Assembly: GCA_002105175.1 (NCBI GenBank)
Contig: MCGE01000008.1
Location: 1,054,001-1,118,000, forward strand
From: Absidia repens
Lineage: Eukaryota; Mucoromycota; Mucoromycetes; Mucorales; Cunninghamellaceae
Direction of reading: 5' to 3'
Length of the DNA stretch: 64,000 nt
Each line of letters opens with the position of its first letter. Within the stretch, counting starts at the first letter, position 1. The position numbers and the translations under genes are program-made. Positions 29,819 through 43,649 of the stretch are shown piece by piece. The notes below the pieces were generated by a model. The model was given only the letters and a program-made list of their open reading frames with translations, had not been told where the DNA came from and searched no databases.

Positions 29819-31886
29819 ATGTATCTTTCTATACCCATTATTGATAGACTGTCCTTCCGCGATTCACAAAAGTAAGTTGATTGAAATATACAAATATTTG
29901 AATGGAGGACCTCTTGACTAACTGGCCGTAACTTTTTTTCTCTTTGTTTGTTTCACGTGTGCTTGTTTCAAAAGTATCGTCTTCACCGTCGTCTTCTTTG
30001 TTTTTGAAGGTTTTATACGTATTATCGTTAGTATTTTACCTCAGTTTGTGATTGATCTCATTGACTCGTTTATTTCAACGTAAGTGTGCAAGACAAAGAA
30101 TCGCAATATGTCACTGGTATTCATTCATTCTCGTCTGCGTTTTCTTTTACTGTAGGTACTTTCCCTGGTTATCAAAACTGGATAAGAAGCCGCATGTCTC
30201 CTCCCTTGAAAAGGCAGAAACATTTGAAAAAATGGTTAATTTTTGGTAAGATCATATGTACACAAGGTGAAAAAGGACAACACTTATCTCACCCATTCTT
30301 CCTTTTTACTTGGAAAGGAATCACTATAACTATGAACAGCACTTGATTCGGACAAAAGACGATTACTTACTATGTGCACACCGGGTTCCTTCTGTCAAAA
30401 CTCAAGGTCGTCAACCTCCTGCCGACATCTATTGTAAACCCATCATCAATGAAAATGGTATGGATATCCTTGACTGTCTTGATCGATTTGCCCCAAGATA
30501 TGATGAAGACAATGACAATGAAAATAATGATGATGATGACAGTGCTACAAGTGGCGATAATGGCAGCAGTGGTGGTGGGAAACCTGTCGTCTTGCTTTAT
30601 CATGGGTTTTTGATGTCATCTGAAATATGGGCCTGCAATACAAGCGAATATCGAAATCTTCCTTTATTACTGGCAAGCCTTGGTTATGATGTCTGGCTAG
30701 GAAACGCACGAGGGAACAAATACAGTCAAGCGCATCAGAAACTCAGTGCAAATGATACCCAATTTTGGAACTTTTCTTTGAATGAGCTAGCTATGTATGA
30801 TTTACCAGATACCATTGATGTAAGTCAAATCGGAATACTGAAGACAAAGGAGGAAGGGGACAGGAGCGGTACAAAACAAAGGAGTACTGATATTATTGTG
30901 TTTATAATTTAAAAAAATAATAGTATATACTTGAAACTACTGGCCGCAAGAATTTGACCTATATTGGATTCTCTCAAGGTACAGCACTCGGATTCTCTTC
31001 ACTCTCTGTCAATAGGGATCTCAACAAAAAGGTCAACCTGTTCATCGCCCTCGCACCTGCAACAACACCTATTGGACTTCATCATCCTCTAATTGATTCT
31101 TTTGTCAAAGCTGCTCCATCGGTGATCTATCTAATCTTTGGTCGAAAAATGCCTCTGAAACTGACTATGTTTTGGCAGCGTATGGTCAGTCCTCCCTTGT
31201 TTGTCCAAATCATCGATGCGTGTGTCCGATTTTTATTTGGGTGGACGGGCAAGAATATTAGCTCTGAACAGAAATTAGTTAGCTACCAGCATTTATATAG
31301 CCCAACAAGTGTTAAAACTTTGGTGGTAAGTACAGGACAGCATAGTACGGCGGAAAAAAAAAAAAAAGTGGGCAAGAGTTTTTAAGCTGATAATTGATTT
31401 ATTTATTTTTGGTGGGACCCTGGGGGGTATTTCTTATTTTAGCACTGGTTTCAAATCATACGCACCGGCCAATTCCAGATGTTTGACGAAATGCATAGTC
31501 GATTGCCTTTTAAACGACCTTCCAGCGTGACTGACCATATTGCACCCAAATTCCCGACCAAACAAATCAAAACACCCATGGCTTTGCTCTATGGCGGATC
31601 GGATTCACTCGTCAACTTTGAAGTCCTATCAGCTGATTTGCCAAGACCTTTGGCCTACATCAAGCGAATCGACACATGGGAACATCTGGACTTTATCTGG
31701 GCAAAGGGGATTGAGAACATTGTCTTCCCAGACATTCTTCATTTGCTGGATCACTTCAACCCGACATCGACACGGATTCAGCAAGGTGACTCCAAGAAGA
31801 AGAAGGAATGGACTATGCGGAATCATCAACAATATCAGCATTATAGCAAGCAACATGAAGCAAGTTCTGATACCCCATCCTCTTAG
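29819..31886 (+). CDS. Acid-lipase family alpha/beta hydrolase (steryl ester/TAG lipase, Tgl1/Yeh-like)
   Basis: Six exons (29819-29871, 29975-30079, 30156-30245, 30318-30819, 30924-31325, 31443-31886) give 531 aa. An N-terminal hydrophobic segment (~18-45, with VFTVVFFVFEGFIRIIV) would anchor it to the ER or lipid droplet, as in yeast Tgl1/Yeh1/Yeh2. The family N-terminal block (HLIRTKDDYLLCAHRVP) precedes the oxyanion motif LLYHGFLMSS and the VWLGNARGNKYS block. The catalytic triad appears intact: Ser267 in GFSQG, Asp438 in YGGSDSLV, His465 in WEHLDF. A ~25-residue Asp/Asn/Gly-rich insert lies just before the oxyanion strand, unusual for the family. It follows the perilipin gene on the same strand. 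Substrate (sterol ester or triacylglycerol) cannot be decided from sequence. A poly(A) signal is at 32038-32043. Confidence 0.92.
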
Positions 31887-32701: not shown

Positions 32702-35700
32702 ATGTCTGATTTCTTCGGAAGTCTGGGGAGAAGAAAGCAAAAAAGGTCAACTTCTCCACCGGCCGATTCTTCTCATCGTCAAAGTTTCTCAAGCAGTAAA
32801 GATTTTTTTCAAGAGAAAAAAAAAGGGGGAGGGCGAATATCCTGCGTAGTAATGCTCATATTCCTTTTATTTGATTAGGTCATAGACAATCTATCGATGG
32901 AAGGCGATCTATCATGTCCAATAGAAGCGCTGGTGATCAAGTTCCTGTAGCTGAAAATTTGCCATCTCCTGAACAAATCAACGAGCTTTTTGAACAGATG
33001 CTGGTAAGATGATAACAAAAAGAAGTAGGCTTTTACAAATACGGGGCTTATACTGAAACTGCTATCTTCACCTTTTTGTATATACATATATTTATTTATA
33101 TCTTTGTGCTGTTTGTATTTTAAAAACATGCAAACCTATAGGCTCGGCGAGGTATTAGAGATGAACAAGTTCGCGAAAGCATGTTAGCATGGGACCCAAC
33201 GAAGAAATGGCTCATGATCAACCAAGACCGACAAGCAGAAATATTGGCGTCAGGGACCTCCTCTAGCGGTGCGGGTGGTGCTGATGACCCTCCTCCCTTG
33301 ATCAACATTTTGGCTGAAAAGGCGGGTGAAATGTGGACGGCAACCGTGGATGCTGGCTCTAGGGCGGTGGAAAAACATTCCCAACGACAAACAATATATC
33401 ACCATCACCATCATCAATCCTCTCGGCCCCTTTCTGGGGAAGTGGTGCCTGGTGCAAGTCTCTCTTCCTCGTCTGCTGGATCTTCTGCTGCAACGGCTAC
33501 GGCAACGGGTGCTAATCCTCTCGACCCAAACGCCCTCTCTTCCGATCGCAACACCCCCGAGTACTATATACGAAAATTTATGGAAGCTGATCTACGTGCT
33601 GTTACTCCTGCCATTGCCTCTCATCTCGAAGTGAGTTTGCGGACACGACCTATCGAGTAAGTGGGATGAATCAATTGCAATTAGAATATACCAATTGACC
33701 TTTTTTTTTCCCTTGTGTGTGTGTAGCTGGATTATCAAATTTATCAACTTGAAAGGGTTCCATGTCTTGATCAATGGTTTATCTTTCGTGAATCACAAGC
33801 CAGACAGGTAAAATGATAAACAAGTGGTGGCAAAGAAGAAACATTGACATCTTTACACTCATCGTCCCCTTATATCACCTTAAAACTATAGGAAAGATCG
33901 GTACTTGGATTTGGAAATTGAAATCATCAAATGTATCAAAGTGATGCTGAACACAAGAGTAAGTAGACAATTCGAAGTTGAATGCGGTTCAACAACAAAA
34001 AAAAAAGAGGGGGTGTGATTTATATTCAAGCTTACGCTGATCTTTTTATTTTTTTTCTTGATGTTCTTGACGTAGTGGGGTATCCGTGAAGCCATTGCTC
34101 ATCCAACATACACACATACACTTGTCTTCTCCTTGGTGTGTCCTCATTGGCAAACACGCAAAATCACTTGTGATATGCTCTTCTTTTTATGTCATTGTGA
34201 AGTACCTGTTGGTCATGGCCATGTCCTGAAGGGATTCGAACTTTTGCAGCAACATCGTGAAAGCCTAGGTATCTTCGATTTATGGTTGAAAGATCTGGAA
34301 CAAACAGTAGATGGTCGTGGTCGCATGGGATCTTTAGTGGGCGCTGCCGATGATCTTAAACGATTGGGTGTTTATAACGCTCCCGATAGTCATTTGATGG
34401 AATATGCCGTAAGTTCAATCCATAAACAAAGAGAGGTGGATATGCGATAGTGATAATGGTACTAAGCTACAATTACTGGGGACCGGGTTATTTATTTATA
34501 TCATCTAGTTATCAAATATGATGTTGGTGAATGTGTTGACCAATGTACCTAGTGAAGTCACAGAACGGGTCTACCTGCGAAATATGCTCAACGCTTCCGG
34601 AATGGCTCGAATTTTACCCAAATTGGAGGCTCTGGATTATCATTTATTGACTGTGCAAATCAACGCTTACAAAAATGCTGCCGAAAACGATCTGGAAGAA
34701 GCATTTGGTGATGAACTATCCATGTACTCGGAAATATCCCAACCCAATGAACTGTTTGAACTTATTATGGACAATCTGGCCGATGCTCCACAAGCAGTAG
34801 AATTCCTTGTTGCCACCTTTAAAAGTATGTTATTGATTAAGGGCGAACCGGATCAAAAGTAAGTATTAGTGGGCATATATATTTATATATCTATATGTGT
34901 GTGTAAAGAATGGTTGATCGTGATATTCGATTAAGATGCTGACTGCAGACACTTATGATACATGTATATATAGGACCCATTATCACCATATGATCAGTGA
35001 ATTAGTGCACCAAATTGTGATGGATCGGCGTAGCAGTGTGGGCACGGAAGCGTTCAGCTCGGCTTATGGTGTATCTGTGGGCAATCTCATTCAAAAATTT
35101 GGGGAACTGGACCGACTTCGACAACTTGAAGAAGAGGAGGCGGAAAACAGGGAACGTTTACTTCGAATGGGTGCTGAAAATAAAGAACTGCGAATGGAAT
35201 TGGAATACATGCGATCCCAACGTGGTAGTGGTGCCAATACCCCTTTGATGAAAGAATCGGAACCTCCGAGACGTAAGTTGATACCTAGCTAGATGGATAG
35301 AGTGTGTAGCTATATATTATTCATTGCTAACATTGGCTTCATACTTATTGTTTAGGGTCTTTGAATCTCAAAATGGAAAACGCATCCTTAAGAGCCCTTT
35401 TACGTACATCCAAAGCGACCATCGCCATGCTCCAACAAGAACTCAAGGATAAGGATTCAACAGATGGGAAATCACCCGGTCTTGTCTTGGGTGAACAATG
35501 GAAATTGACTGCTGGTCCACAAAAACAAAAACAATCGCCGGTAAGAAAAAAATAATAACAATAATAACAATAATAATAATAATCTGAAAGAGAAAGCGAG
35601 GGACTATGTATCTCACCCATGTCATCTGCATTATTCTGCTATTTTTATATTAGAATCAGAATCAAACGCAAAATTCGACCTTCAACATTGGTGCAGGTGG

Positions 35701-38700
35701 ATTTTTCATTCCCGGAATGGAACCGGGCCAAGGACAAAATGCAGCACACGGTACGTATCAACTTGAAAAAAAAAAGTCAGAAGGATAGGGGACCGAAGGA
35801 ATGGTGCTTACATATGTTGTGTGCTATTATATAGATGACAAGGAACCAGTGACTAGTACAGAAGGCCAAGGTAATTTATTAAATGAATCATATTTGACTA
35901 GCTCTTATATTAACCTTTGTGCACATGCATTTTCAGAACAATCAGCTGTGGCACCATCCACTCCGGTACCAGGTATTAGCATAATATAATCAAAAACAAG
36001 AGTATGTTTCTTATTCCTTCTTTTTTAGGTGAATCTCAAGGCATCAACGCCGATATCCCCCCGCCGCCACCTCCCCCTCCTGTCCACGGTAAGTCAAAAG
36101 AAAAAACAATAATTTATCTACAAATACATACAAGAAAAAGCTGACAACTATATTTCAATTATTTTTCAAGGTGATACTATTCCTCCTCCCCCTCCTCGTA
36201 AGTAAAAGCGAAAAATCTATGAAACACATACCGATGATACATTCACAATCTAACAAATATATTTATTTCTCTTCAAAGCACCCGGATCGTCCGATGGTAT
36301 CCCGCCGCCGCCACCTCCTCCTCCTCGTAAGTGAAACGAACATAACAGACTGATTGGCAATAATTTCTGACTACATTTCTGTTTTTCTCTTTTTCGCATA
36401 GCCCCAGGTGGTGCTGGCATTCCTCCTCCACCTCCACCTCCACCTCGTGAGTAAAAGCAATGCAATGCGTTTATCTGGTCACAAATAAAGCAATATACGA
36501 TAGAAAAATACTCACTATAACACTTCTTGTCATTGTATTTATATAGCTCCAGGTGGTGCTGGCATTCCTCCTCCACCTCCTCCTCCACCTCGTAAGTAAA
36601 AGCAATGCAGTGCGTCTATTGACCACAACTAAAACAATATACGATAGAAAAATACTCACTATAACATTTCTTATCATTGTATTTCTATAGCTCCAGGTGG
36701 TGCTGGTATCCCGCCTCCCCCTCCCCCTCCTCCTCGTAAGTATAGAAAATGGGGATAAAACATGGTAGGTTACAGTGATACTTACTCTCCTGACATTCAC
36801 TTTTCTCGTAGCACCCGGAGGCCCTGGAATTCCTCCTCCTCCCCCTCGTAAGTATAAAAAAAGAAGAATACTTTAAGGACTTACCATTATTAATCACTTG
36901 GTATTAATATTTTTTCCGTGTAGCTCCTGGTGGTCCTGGTATCCCTCCCCCTCCTCCTCGTAAGTAACAAAAAAAAAAAAAAAAAAAAAAAGGAAATAGC
37001 GTCATTATTCTCATCTATTTTTCTTCCATTCTTTAGCTCCCGGTGGTCCTGGTATCCCGCCTCCTCCCCCTCCCCCAGGTAAAACGAATGAAAATAGCAA
37101 AAGTTGTACCATGTATTGGTTGCCAATTACTCATGTTCATTTATTTATTCCTTTGTAAAGGTGGTGGTCCCATTGCTCCACCTGTGCCATTGGGACCTTT
37201 GCGCAAAGAATTACGACATTATCCTGAAGTTAAGCTCAAGAATTTACAATGGCAAAAATTAGATGCACGTAACGTGGAAAAAACGGTTTGGGTGGCCAAA
37301 ACAGTGGATGAAGATGCTTTGGAAGATGCTATGGATGAAAACGGTGTGTTTGTCAAGATTCAAGATCTTTTCCCTGCCAAGGTGAATACCTTCTTTGAAA
37401 GACGCTTGGCCAAGAAAACGGAAGAAAAGAAGGACGCTGTTAGATTCTTGGGCAAGGAAAAAGGACGAAGTATCAGTAAGTAATTATGTTTGTTTGCTTT
37501 TATCAGTTATGTTTGTATGATGGGCATTAAATTATTCCTATTTTTCAACACTAGGCATTGCGGTGCTACCAAAGATCAGCAAGTATAGCAGTCTAGAAGA
37601 AGCGAAACAACACATTATGGCGGTTGATGATGCTCTTTGTACCGACACCTTCTTAAGCAATTTGATTACATACGTGCCAGACAAGCAAGATGACCTCAAG
37701 GTCATGGAAAAATATCTCAAGGCTACTCCTGAAGAATGCGAAGAATTGGCGGAACCCGACCATTTTACTGTGGTGGTAAGTTATTATGCCTAGAAAAGCA
37801 GAAACAAAAAGGTTCCCCATATAAGAGACTTACGCTATTTCAATTTACAGATGATGAAAATGTACCGATACGAAGCAAGAATACAATTCATGTTATTCCG
37901 GGCGCAATTCTGGGAACGCTACGACCAATTAACAAAGGTAACAAGAAAAATATCATCCTCCGAAATGTTTCTTGTTTCTTAACCAACATATCTCCTTTTT
38001 TTTTTTAGAACATGACTGTAGTGTTGGATATATCGGATTCGTTAAGAAATTCGAGCAGCTTCAAGGAATTACTATGCGTAAGATTTATATACATCTACAC
38101 TCATATTTGCCAGTGACGGCCCTGACTTCAATTTTTTCTCGTTTAGGTCATCCTTCTACTTGGAAACTACATGAATGCGTCAAGTCTTCAAGGCGGTGCC
38201 TTTGGTATGCGTATCTCAAGTATTAATAAGGTAAGATTTAGAAAAGAAAAAAAAGTAGAATGATGTGCTTACCCTTTCTACTTGATCTATATAGCTGGTC
38301 GACACAAGAGCCTCCAATGTATCCACTTTGACACTTCTGCATGTCCTGACTGGTATTGTACGACGACATTTCCCTCACGTACTCCAATTTATTGAAGATC
38401 TTAAAGAAGCCCCTCAGGCTGCCCGAGGTAAGATGCGCATACATTTCCGAAAAAAAAGGGGGGTGCGAGTTTATGGATTGGCTGCTGATAATAATGGATA
38501 ATTTAATACTTCTTGTTTTGTTGTATATAGTAATGGCCAGTGTCAATGATATGGTCCAACAATATACCGAAATGAGGCAAAGTTTGAAACATTTGGCTTT
38601 GGAATTGGGAACAAATTGGCAACCTGAAGATGTAAAGTTGGAAGAAGGCGATCGATTCCTCCAAGTAATGAACGAGCATTATGAAGCTGCCAGCAACCGA

Positions 38701-39301
38701 TTCGAGGATTTGGAAACGCTTTATATTAATATGGACGCCAAATGGAAGGATGTTATGGTGTTTTATGGTGAAAATCCCAAGGTGATGCGACCCGATGACT
38801 TTTTCAATACTATCTCTCAATTCGTAACCTCGTGGAAGGACGCCAGTATCGCCGAAGAAAAACACAGTCAAAAGGTGGAACGAGACGAAAAACGAAAACA
38901 AGATGAATTGGAACGCAAAGAAAGGCAACTCAAGAAAAAGAAAGAAGCGGAATTGGCTGCTGCGTCTTCTTCACCTTCATCATCACCATCACCATCAGCA
39001 CAGCGCATCACTGCTGTTGATATCAGTGAAGGTAAGTTTATTTTCAAGAGCTGTGAAATTGTCATCACCAACTCACTTTATTATTATTATATTAGGTGCG
39101 ACCACTGGCACTGATGCTGATCGTAATATGATGGATGACTTATTGGCCAAATTACGAGTGGGTGATGTGGAAGTGCGTACCACTCGACAAAAACGATCAA
39201 ATGACAAGCATTCTCCTCGACCAAATATCCGCCCCGTTGAAGATGGTGACGATGCCCTATCTGCTGAAGCCTTGCTCAAGTCTTTACAAACTGCTGAATA
39301 A
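32702..39301 (+). CDS. Diaphanous-type formin (GBD/FH3-FH1-FH2-DAD)
   Basis: Nucleates and elongates actin filaments at growth sites under Rho GTPase control. 29 exons, all in frame, give 1405 aa: 32702-32795, 32879-33003, 33142-33656, 33727-33807, 33892-33958, 34076-34408, 34509-34858, 34974-35272, 35356-35540, 35654-35750, 35835-35870, 35937-35972, 36029-36088, 36171-36197, 36279-36326, 36402-36446, 36547-36591, 36691-36735, 36812-36847, 36924-36959, 37037-37078, 37161-37475, 37555-37775, 37851-37937, 38009-38077, 38147-38230, 38295-38427, 38531-39031, 39096-39301. GBD/FH3 spans ~60-540 (LPSPEQINELFEQML, VCPHWQTRKITC). A coiled coil lies at ~560-610. FH1 is ~716-870, FH2 ~880-1290 (KLKNLQWQKLD, ILLLGNYMNASSLQGGAFG), then a basic linker and DAD (MMDDLLAKLRVG, ~1350). 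FH1 is built from mini-exons. A poly(A) signal is at 39485-39490. Confidence 0.95.
35835..37078 (+). repeat. Tandem array of phase 1-1 mini-exons encoding the formin FH1 polyproline tracks
   Basis: Eleven consecutive exons of 36, 36, 60, 27, 48, 45, 45, 45, 36, 36 and 42 nt. Each begins and ends in phase 1 and is a multiple of three long. From the third on, each encodes one track of 5-8 prolines, mostly preceded by PGG(A/P)GI. Exons 16-18 are near-identical. Introns 16 and 17 (36,447-36,546 and 36,592-36,690) share long blocks such as CAATATACGATAGAAAAATA, showing duplication of a ~145-bp exon-plus-intron unit. Flanking exons 10 and 22 have matching phases, so any subset can be skipped without a frameshift. 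Confidence 0.93.
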
Positions 39302-42015: not shown

Positions 42016-43649
42016 ATGCTTCGATCAACTCTTGTAAGTCCATTACACCGACTGTCTCTCAACAAACACACATACATTCCAACTAGTCAAAAGGTAGGTA
42101 AAAACAGATCCGATTACGTCTTTTTCAAATAAGGATATATCTAACGACTCTCTCTTTTTATATCTGTTTAATGACTCTAGCTCTTTTACAGCGTTTTGGC
42201 CAACGTACAATCTGCAGAAGCAAGCAAAGAAAAGGCCAAATCGAAATGGACAAGTGAAGACAAGTTTACAAGCGATATGACCTTTGTACAGAATATTGAA
42301 CCTCTCAAGGCCTATCGAGTAATGGATCATACTGGCACGGTTTTGGACAAGAAACACGAACCCAACTTGTCTGAGGAATTTGCCGTCAATCTCTACAAGA
42401 AAATGTCTCAATTATACACTATGGACGGTATCCTCTATGAAGCACAACGTCAAGGTCGCATCTCCTTTTATATGACACATTATGGTGAAGAAGCAACGAT
42501 GGGTACCGCGGCCGCTTTGAATCCAGAAGATATGATTTTCGGACAGGTAAGGATAACATAAAACATAAGGGGTAGAAAAAAAAAGGGGAGGGGGTGATAG
42601 AGAATGCACAATGATCTTTGAGTCACTAATTGGGTACACCTCCTGGTTTGTTTTATTGGTTTTGATATGGCTACAAAATAGTACCGTGAATCGTTTATGC
42701 TTGTATACCGTGGATTCAGTATCGATGAATTTGTCAACCAATGCTTCTCAAATGAACTGGATTATGGAAGAGGTCGACAAATGCCAATTCATTATGGTAC
42801 CAAAAAATTAGCCTTCCAAACCATCTCTTCTCCTCTTGGCACTCAAATTCCTCAAGCTGCTGGTGCTGCCTATGCTTTCAAATTGGCTGGAAAGGATGCC
42901 TGTAGTATATGTTTCTTTGGTGAAGGTGCTGCTTCGGAAGGTGATTTCCATGCTGGATTAAACATGGCTGCCACTCTCAATAGTCCAACTATTTTCTTCT
43001 GGTAAGACTTTTTTACGATATATATGGATACAAAGTATAATGATACTGATTATGATTTTTCTTCTTTTTTGGGGGCGGATGTTAAAATAGTCGTAACAAC
43101 GGATTTGCCATCTCAACACCAGCATCTGAACAATATCGGGGTGATGGCATTGCTAGTCGTGGTGTCGGTTATGGTATCGATACGATCCGTGTGGATGGCA
43201 ATGATGTATGGGCTGTTTACAATGCTACCAAGGCGGCCAGGGAAATTGCAGTGAAGGAAAAACGACCCATCCTGATTGAATCCATGACTTACCGTATTGG
43301 TCACCACAGTACCTCTGATGACTCTACCAAATATCGTGATCGTAAGGAAGTGGAAGAACGTGCTCAGTTTGACAACCCTATCACTCGATTCCGTCGCTAT
43401 TTGGAACAAAAGCAATGGTGGGATCAAGAACAAGACGATGCCTGGCGCAAGGAAATCAAGCAAACTGTGCTCAAGAGCTTCGCTGCTGCCGAAAAGTTGA
43501 AGAAGCCATCCTTGGATTACCTATTCACTGATGTATATGACGAAATGACGCCAAACTTGGTCCGACAAAAAGAAGAACTGGAACGACTAATGAAGGAGTA
43601 CCCTGAATATTACCCCACCGATGAATTCGCTCCCTCTTCCTCATCTTAG
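42016..43649 (+). CDS. BCKDHA: Branched-chain 2-oxoacid dehydrogenase E1 alpha subunit (mitochondrial)
   Basis: TPP-dependent decarboxylase subunit of the BCKDH complex, degrading the oxoacids of Val, Leu and Ile in the mitochondrial matrix. Four exons (42016-42093, 42181-42546, 42682-43001, 43091-43649) give 440 aa, the family length. The N-terminus ([17 protein letters not shown]) is basic and amphipathic, a mitochondrial presequence. Family blocks: [25 protein letters not shown], the TPP-binding GEGAASEGD...CRNNG motif, and the phosphorylation-loop segment [15 protein letters not shown]. The latter distinguishes BCKDH E1 alpha from pyruvate dehydrogenase E1 alpha. An alternative GTAAGT donor lies within exon 1 at 42,034, inside the presequence. 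A poly(A) signal is at 43747-43752. Confidence 0.95.

Follow-up and report, generated by a model that had tools for sequence, protein, structure and literature searches.

One polyproline track per phase 1-1 mini-exon in the predicted FH1 region of an Absidia repens formin

Formin tracks and serial small exons in described systems

The FH1 region of formins carries polyproline tracks, which take up profilin-actin and pass it on to the barbed end held by FH2. Formins are presumed to adjust actin delivery through the number and spacing of these tracks. According to the accessible portion of one report, mDia1 has 14 tracks, and with 2 of the 14 it still accelerated elongation and showed lowered dissociation with profilin (PMC5969902). 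Track number is thus no simple dial, and an earlier note on the present DNA, which held that track number and length set formin speed, put the relationship too strongly. The order GBD-FH3-FH1-FH2 was described, in the available part of a comparative paper, as standard in all fungal formins studied by then (PMC2386819). Bni1, SepA and mDia1 share with the formin described here both this order and an FH1 with several polyproline tracks, which in the present gene are tracks of 7-10 prolines preceding FH2; they differ from it in that the present gene devotes one phase 1-1 mini-exon to each track. Within a limited body of open-access literature, partly accessible and including PMC2386819, PMC12263155, PMC3820618 and PMC10797183, no description of a one-track-per-exon FH1 was found, and a whole-word search of the open-access literature returned no paper on Mucorales formins among the matches listed. 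In Drosophila, Fhod isoforms are identical in FH1 and FH2, as stated in the accessible text of that study (PMC10797183). Within the open-access literature searched, the domain order of diaphanous formins and the multi-track FH1 are known, and the arrangement of one phase 1-1 mini-exon per track appears to be new.

The tropoelastin gene is composed of numerous short exons of like phase, with one repeat module to each, and these exons are used alternatively. The present gene resembles it in having small same-phase exons with one repeat module each, and differs in that another protein is encoded and in that alternative exon use is known for tropoelastin. Schistosome micro-exon genes (MEGs) contain runs of very small symmetrical exons, according to the available part of the source (PMC4350168), and the formin gene shares with them its consecutive tiny symmetric exons (11 of 29 exons, 27-60 nt, phase 1-1). 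However, most of the coding region of MEGs lies in such exons, compared with only 456 of 4218 nt here, which leaves the formin outside that class as the accessible text describes it. Furthermore, alternative splicing of MEGs varies secreted proteins (PMC4350168, same portion), whereas splicing variation in the formin gene is hypothetical.

Gene model and mini-exon array

The genome of Absidia repens (Mucorales, Cunninghamellaceae) comprises 47.4 Mb on 79 contigs, and the window, the whole 64,000-nt stretch analysed, is part of contig C78. The predicted exon model, derived from consensus splice sites, an uninterrupted reading frame and matches to domains, places the formin gene on the plus strand at 32702..39301, with 29 exons, a coding sequence of 4218 nt, a spliced product of 1405 aa and GT/AG borders at all 28 introns. 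Pfam searches of this product matched Drf_GBD (PF06371) at residues 60-334 (125.9 bits), Drf_FH3 (PF06367) at 360-541 (104.6 bits) and FH2 (PF02181) at 888-1273 (238 bits), and nine proline runs of 7-10 P end 131 to 21 residues N-terminal of the FH2 match. The resulting layout is Drf_GBD - Drf_FH3 - FH1 - FH2 - C-terminal tail, which bears out the earlier assignment of the prolines to a formin FH1. DAD gave no Pfam match in the product; the C-terminal tail carries an MMDDLLAKL stretch followed by basic residues, which we take to resemble the DAD core. By its predicted GBD, FH3, proline-rich FH1 and FH2, the gene is a diaphanous-related formin, in which the MMDDLLAKL stretch is at most a candidate DAD, and a Bni1/SepA-like identity forms part of the overall reading that we consider probable. 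No public protein of the window locus was present among the matches listed (80; the best 120 of 168; the best 120 of 139). The gene is flanked upstream by an alpha/beta-hydrolase lipase gene (window 30271-30909) and downstream by a dehydrogenase E1 component gene (window 42682-43002).

Exons 11-21 (35835..37078, plus strand) form a series of 11 consecutive mini-exons of 36, 36, 60, 27, 48, 45, 45, 45, 36, 36 and 42 nt, every one of phase 1-1, divisible by three and bordered by AG and GT. The first two, exon 11 (35835..35870) and exon 12 (35937..35972), each of 36 nt, carry no track, and the donor after exon 12 (GTATTA, 2.9 bits) scores lowest in the array. Each of exons 13-21 then encodes a single track: exon 13 (36029..36088) track 1, P8; exon 14 (36171..36197) track 2, P7; exon 15 (36279..36326) track 3, P10; exon 16 (36402..36446), exon 17 (36547..36591) and exon 18 (36691..36735) tracks 4, 5 and 6, each P10; and exon 19 (36812..36847), exon 20 (36924..36959) and exon 21 (37037..37078) tracks 7, 8 and 9, each P7, the last lying closest to FH2. 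These runs of 8, 7, 10, 10, 10, 10, 7, 7 and 7 P were counted in the spliced protein; at most array borders the intron falls within a proline codon, so that a run may draw its final prolines from the following exon. Exon 22 (37161..37475, plus strand), likewise of phase 1-1, contains the FH2 start. The earlier note had described eleven exons of 27-60 nt, of phase 1-1 and divisible by three, spanning 35835..37078, with one track each from the third onward and a flanking exon of matching phase, and the 29-exon model agrees with that description at every point, coordinates included. Across window positions 36279-37078, track length is graded, with P10 in exons 15-18 and P7 in the three FH2-proximal tracks, and the repeat periods are 15 and 12 residues.

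The density of introns in this region is high: 10 interrupt the 456 nt of mini-exon coding sequence, where 2.2 would be expected from the density elsewhere in the gene (Poisson P 9e-5, for a region picked post hoc). A genome-wide search for four proline codons followed by C and GTRAGT reported eight matches, seven of them inside the array. The only other match was a proline-rich stretch on the reverse strand of contig C9 (L019 1480-2100). It was rejected as a second gene with the same layout, being a proline-rich stretch whose adjoining 36-aa piece had no Pfam match; a peptide near it presumably recalls the splicing factor SF1/BBP.

With phase 1 at both borders of every unit, the gain or loss of a unit would change the number of tracks and leave both the reading frame and FH2 untouched, and the one-track-per-exon layout would thereby permit strips to come and go with the protein intact. 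The separable track exons also constitute a ready set of exon deletions. The best explanation of the locus as a whole, and in our judgement a probable one, is a constitutively spliced, modular FH1 that grew by slow unit duplication. Under this explanation, the FH1 of a diaphanous formin, with every polyproline track on its own symmetric phase 1-1 mini-exon, would most likely retain all nine track exons in nearly every mRNA, and the nine-track FH1 would dock profilin-actin and pass it to the FH2 dimer; an effect of the arrangement on actin assembly is presumed.

Growth of the array and related formins

Tandem Repeats Finder reported a 144-bp unit in 2.4 copies with 90% matches at 36398-36742, which corresponds to two exon-plus-intron copies (exons 16 and 17 with introns 16 and 17) and a third exon. 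Intron 16 (36447..36546, 100 nt) and intron 17 (36592..36690, 99 nt), both on the plus strand, are identical at 89 of 99 aligned sites (z 46.7 against dinucleotide shuffles) and differ by 8 transitions and 2 transversions, giving a K2P distance of 0.11. Joint duplication of exon and intron is therefore demonstrated for one unit, with exons 16 and 17 as copies 1 and 2 of this recent event. The similarity does not extend to intron 18, and the other eight of the nine adjacent pairs among introns 12-21 show none beyond dinucleotide shuffles (z -1.0 to 1.6), while pairs 10/11 and 11/12 lie outside the 12 best of 378 pairs in the same test. This test is noisy, as the distant non-array pairs i5/i27 and i1/i27 reach z 7-8 on short local matches that were taken as chance. 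Pairs 13/14, 19/20, 13/16 and 10/20 had appeared alike with mononucleotide shuffles (z 3.3-3.8); under dinucleotide shuffles, the first two fell to z 1.5 and 0.1 and the last two dropped outside the 12 best of 378 pairs. The earlier proposal of near-duplicate units of about 145 bp at 36,402-36,735, introns included, thus holds for introns 16 and 17 and fails at intron 18, and the accompanying proposal of growth by tandem duplication holds for that one unit (89/99 sites) and finds no similarity to support it in the other eight adjacent intron pairs.

The exons themselves have diverged in a constrained manner. Exons 16, 17 and 18 encode an identical peptide, with 2 nucleotide differences between 16 and 17 and 6 between 17 and 18, and pairs 19/20 and 20/21 show 8 and 4 differences. 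Across these four pairs, 20 of 20 differences are synonymous and none nonsynonymous, against about 33% synonymous expected by chance, although pairs 19/20 and 20/21 were chosen for matching peptides and are biased toward a synonymous outcome in this comparison of exons 16-21; in the chain 16-17-18 alone, 8 of 8 differences are synonymous (P 1.4e-4). This pattern indicates that the tracks of exons 16-21 are translated and selected at the protein level, and purifying selection on the predicted peptides of these exons is shown by the comparison.

To place the array among related genes, the other formins of the same genome were considered, which contains 40 FH2 matches on 11 contigs. An FH2 tree with a midpoint root was built from 38 rows, those of A. 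repens being stitched from matches except for the row of the window gene. In it, the window gene groups with Halteromyces radiatus (97/92) within a 20-row clade (100/100) that also contains paralogues C36 and C67. C36 has four tracks: three sit on phase 1 exons measuring 51, 57 and 54 nt, and the fourth opens the exon that runs into FH2. Its public A. repens model, P0008, joins track exon 1 to track exon 4 and omits two, which may reflect a real isoform or a prediction error. C67 has two tracks. The first lies on a 78-nt exon and the second opens the FH2 exon; public model P0086 removes the 60-nt intron between them. The length of this inter-track intron (L012 5776-5835), 60 nt, is divisible by three and its frame contains no stop, so that its retention would keep the protein in frame. 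Outside the 20-row clade, with at least 5 proline codons counted as a track, a single open frame holds 7 tracks in C10, 7 in C37, 6 in C19 and 3 in C58, which begins at a contig end; C79 and C11 carry one track each and C45 none. The two tracks of C7, which is also outside the clade, lie in different frames on either side of a 67-nt intron, and intron-separated tracks are therefore not strictly confined to the clade. C10, C37, C19, C58, C7, C79, C11 and C45 form no single clade in the tree, in which the rows of C79 and C11 cover less than half of the columns and C19 is a long branch.

C10, C37, C19 and C58 share a multi-track FH1 with the window gene but differ from it in their mode of growth, which is by repeats within coding sequence rather than by exon-plus-intron units; C10 and C19 have regular repeats of 51 and 42 bp, and C37 is partly regular. 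The 51-bp coding repeat of C10 has 5 copies with 92% matches in one open frame (L013 5636-5889, gene strand, with the locus reverse-complemented), and it makes a better minisatellite than the window array and a stronger candidate for between-strain differences in length. Taken together, the intron-separated tracks of the window gene, C36 and C67 and the one-frame tracks of C10 and its like indicate two ways of multiplying FH1 tracks in one genome. Frame-neutral one-track exons beside one-frame paralogues offer a natural comparison of two routes to evolving track number.

Among other Mucorales, the public models of kin, in which tracks were counted as runs of at least 4 P, contain 8 in Halteromyces, 8 in Gongronella, 6 in Apophysomyces, 7 in Pilobolus, 9 in Sporodiniella (a partial model outside the tree) and 1 in Spinellus; public models can drop exons, as P0008 does, and P0012, P0081, P0084, P0089 and P0091 show no track. 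An Absidia cylindrospora relative of C36 has four. The Apophysomyces (P0002) and Pilobolus (P0006) proteins both fall within the 7-row set of the window gene in the FH2 tree (95/89), and in both a peptide resembling intron sequence coincides exactly with a track border. It begins with R following the prolines and closes with LA or IA ahead of PGG or PGS. These peptides were first spotted by eye, and in a later pattern search of all proteins collected P0002 and P0006 were the sole matches. Exon borders in other species are thus read indirectly from odd peptides of two protein models, which hint at introns in the same place in the two orthologues. The layout would belong to one clade of Mucorales formins, and we infer its spread to other species.

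How the remaining units arose can be weighed against these observations. A fast coding minisatellite, expanding and contracting within the species, would fit the 144-bp tandem unit and the variable track number in the public models of kin (8, 8, 6, 7, 9, 1), where model errors are possible. However, only one intron pair can be aligned and it already stands at K2P 0.11, the remaining neighbouring exons differ at 4-8 synonymous sites per 12-15 codons, and the C10 array is both longer and more regular. With 1 of 9 adjacent intron pairs alignable, the units are not homogeneous in tandem, and we rejected a fast minisatellite on intron divergence, regarding it as highly improbable; the earlier view that the array behaves as a coding minisatellite finds no support. 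Instead, unit turnover looks slow, given that single alignable pair, its K2P distance and the 6 and 8 synonymous sites at which exons 17/18 and 19/20 differ. A separate gain of introns, in which a C10-like repeat-coding exon was cut by introns inserted at a matching point of every repeat, is a doubtful alternative with several points in its favour: eight of nine adjacent intron pairs lack detectable similarity, many-track formins in one open frame occur in the same genome, and intron positions track the repeat register. Against this, one intron was plainly duplicated together with its exon, paralogue C36 shares the phase, and exons 17 and 18 are already separated by changes at 6 of roughly 15 synonymous sites, so that equally old introns could have lost their similarity anyway. 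Slow enlargement through duplication of exon-plus-intron units thus remains the preferred account, and we infer the same origin for the older units. Synonymous-only divergence, with all but one pair looking old, counts against rapid minisatellite turnover and favours steady translation of the exons compared.

Splicing of the array

The array introns measure 56-100 nt, and 7 of the 9 that follow track exons begin with GTAAGT, which fits constitutive splicing by intron definition. Among the 12 introns 10-21, retention of any one of 11 would bring in an in-frame stop, which for introns 14, 15, 16, 17 and 20 comes within about two codons, and the array must therefore be spliced for FH2 to be translated. 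Scored with a matrix built from just 16 other introns of the same gene, the donors of introns 12 and 16 (2.9 and 4.2 bits) and the acceptors of introns 11, 14 and 18 (2.5, 3.3 and 4.3 bits) are low, making some skipping conceivable. Each of the 2048 exon-skipping patterns leaves the frame intact and free of new stops. The earlier note had counted 2^11 in-frame isoforms, which is accurate for the patterns and too high for the products, because several exons encode an identical peptide and only 768 distinct proteins result.

Regulated inclusion of mini-exons, yielding different track numbers at each growth stage, could make use of this freedom, since every pattern is frame-safe and stop-free, the exons are very short and some sites score low. 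A survey across eukaryotes, in its accessible portion, describes skipped exons as tending to be short, with flanking introns usually longer, and places fungi low in exon skipping (PMC6142364). Public model P0008 of paralogue C36, which lacks two of four track exons, also points toward such regulation. Nevertheless, introns of 56-100 nt favour intron definition, failure of which leads to retention, and retention would meet a stop in 11 of 12 cases. In the available part of a fungal survey, 61% of events were retained introns and 3% were skipped exons as a mean over species, and Rhizopus oryzae, its one member of Mucoromycotina, showed 26 retained introns and 0 skipped exons in a small sample of 41 events (PMC3925392). 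Purifying selection on exons 16-21 fits steady inclusion, and the retained function of mDia1 with its FH1 cut from 14 to 2 tracks, as given in the accessible text (PMC5969902), likewise argues against tuning by track number. We therefore regard regulated inclusion as unlikely. The broader proposal that Mucorales evolved a splice-addressable FH1, with interchangeable one-track exons by means of which either the cell or evolution would adjust how many profilin sites a formin has, independently of its FH2 motor, carries a similarly small probability. If RNA showed skipping, it would represent a new way of regulating actin elongation. Constitutive inclusion of the array exons is favoured and appears reasonably probable from the predicted model, given the 56-100 nt introns and the predominance of retention over skipping in fungal surveys.

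Intron 11 (window 35871-35936, 66 nt) is the only stop-free multiple of three among introns 10-21. Its acceptor and the donor of intron 12, which lie beside the track-less mini-exons 11 and 12, have low scores, and the intron 11 region is a likely place for harmless splice variation.
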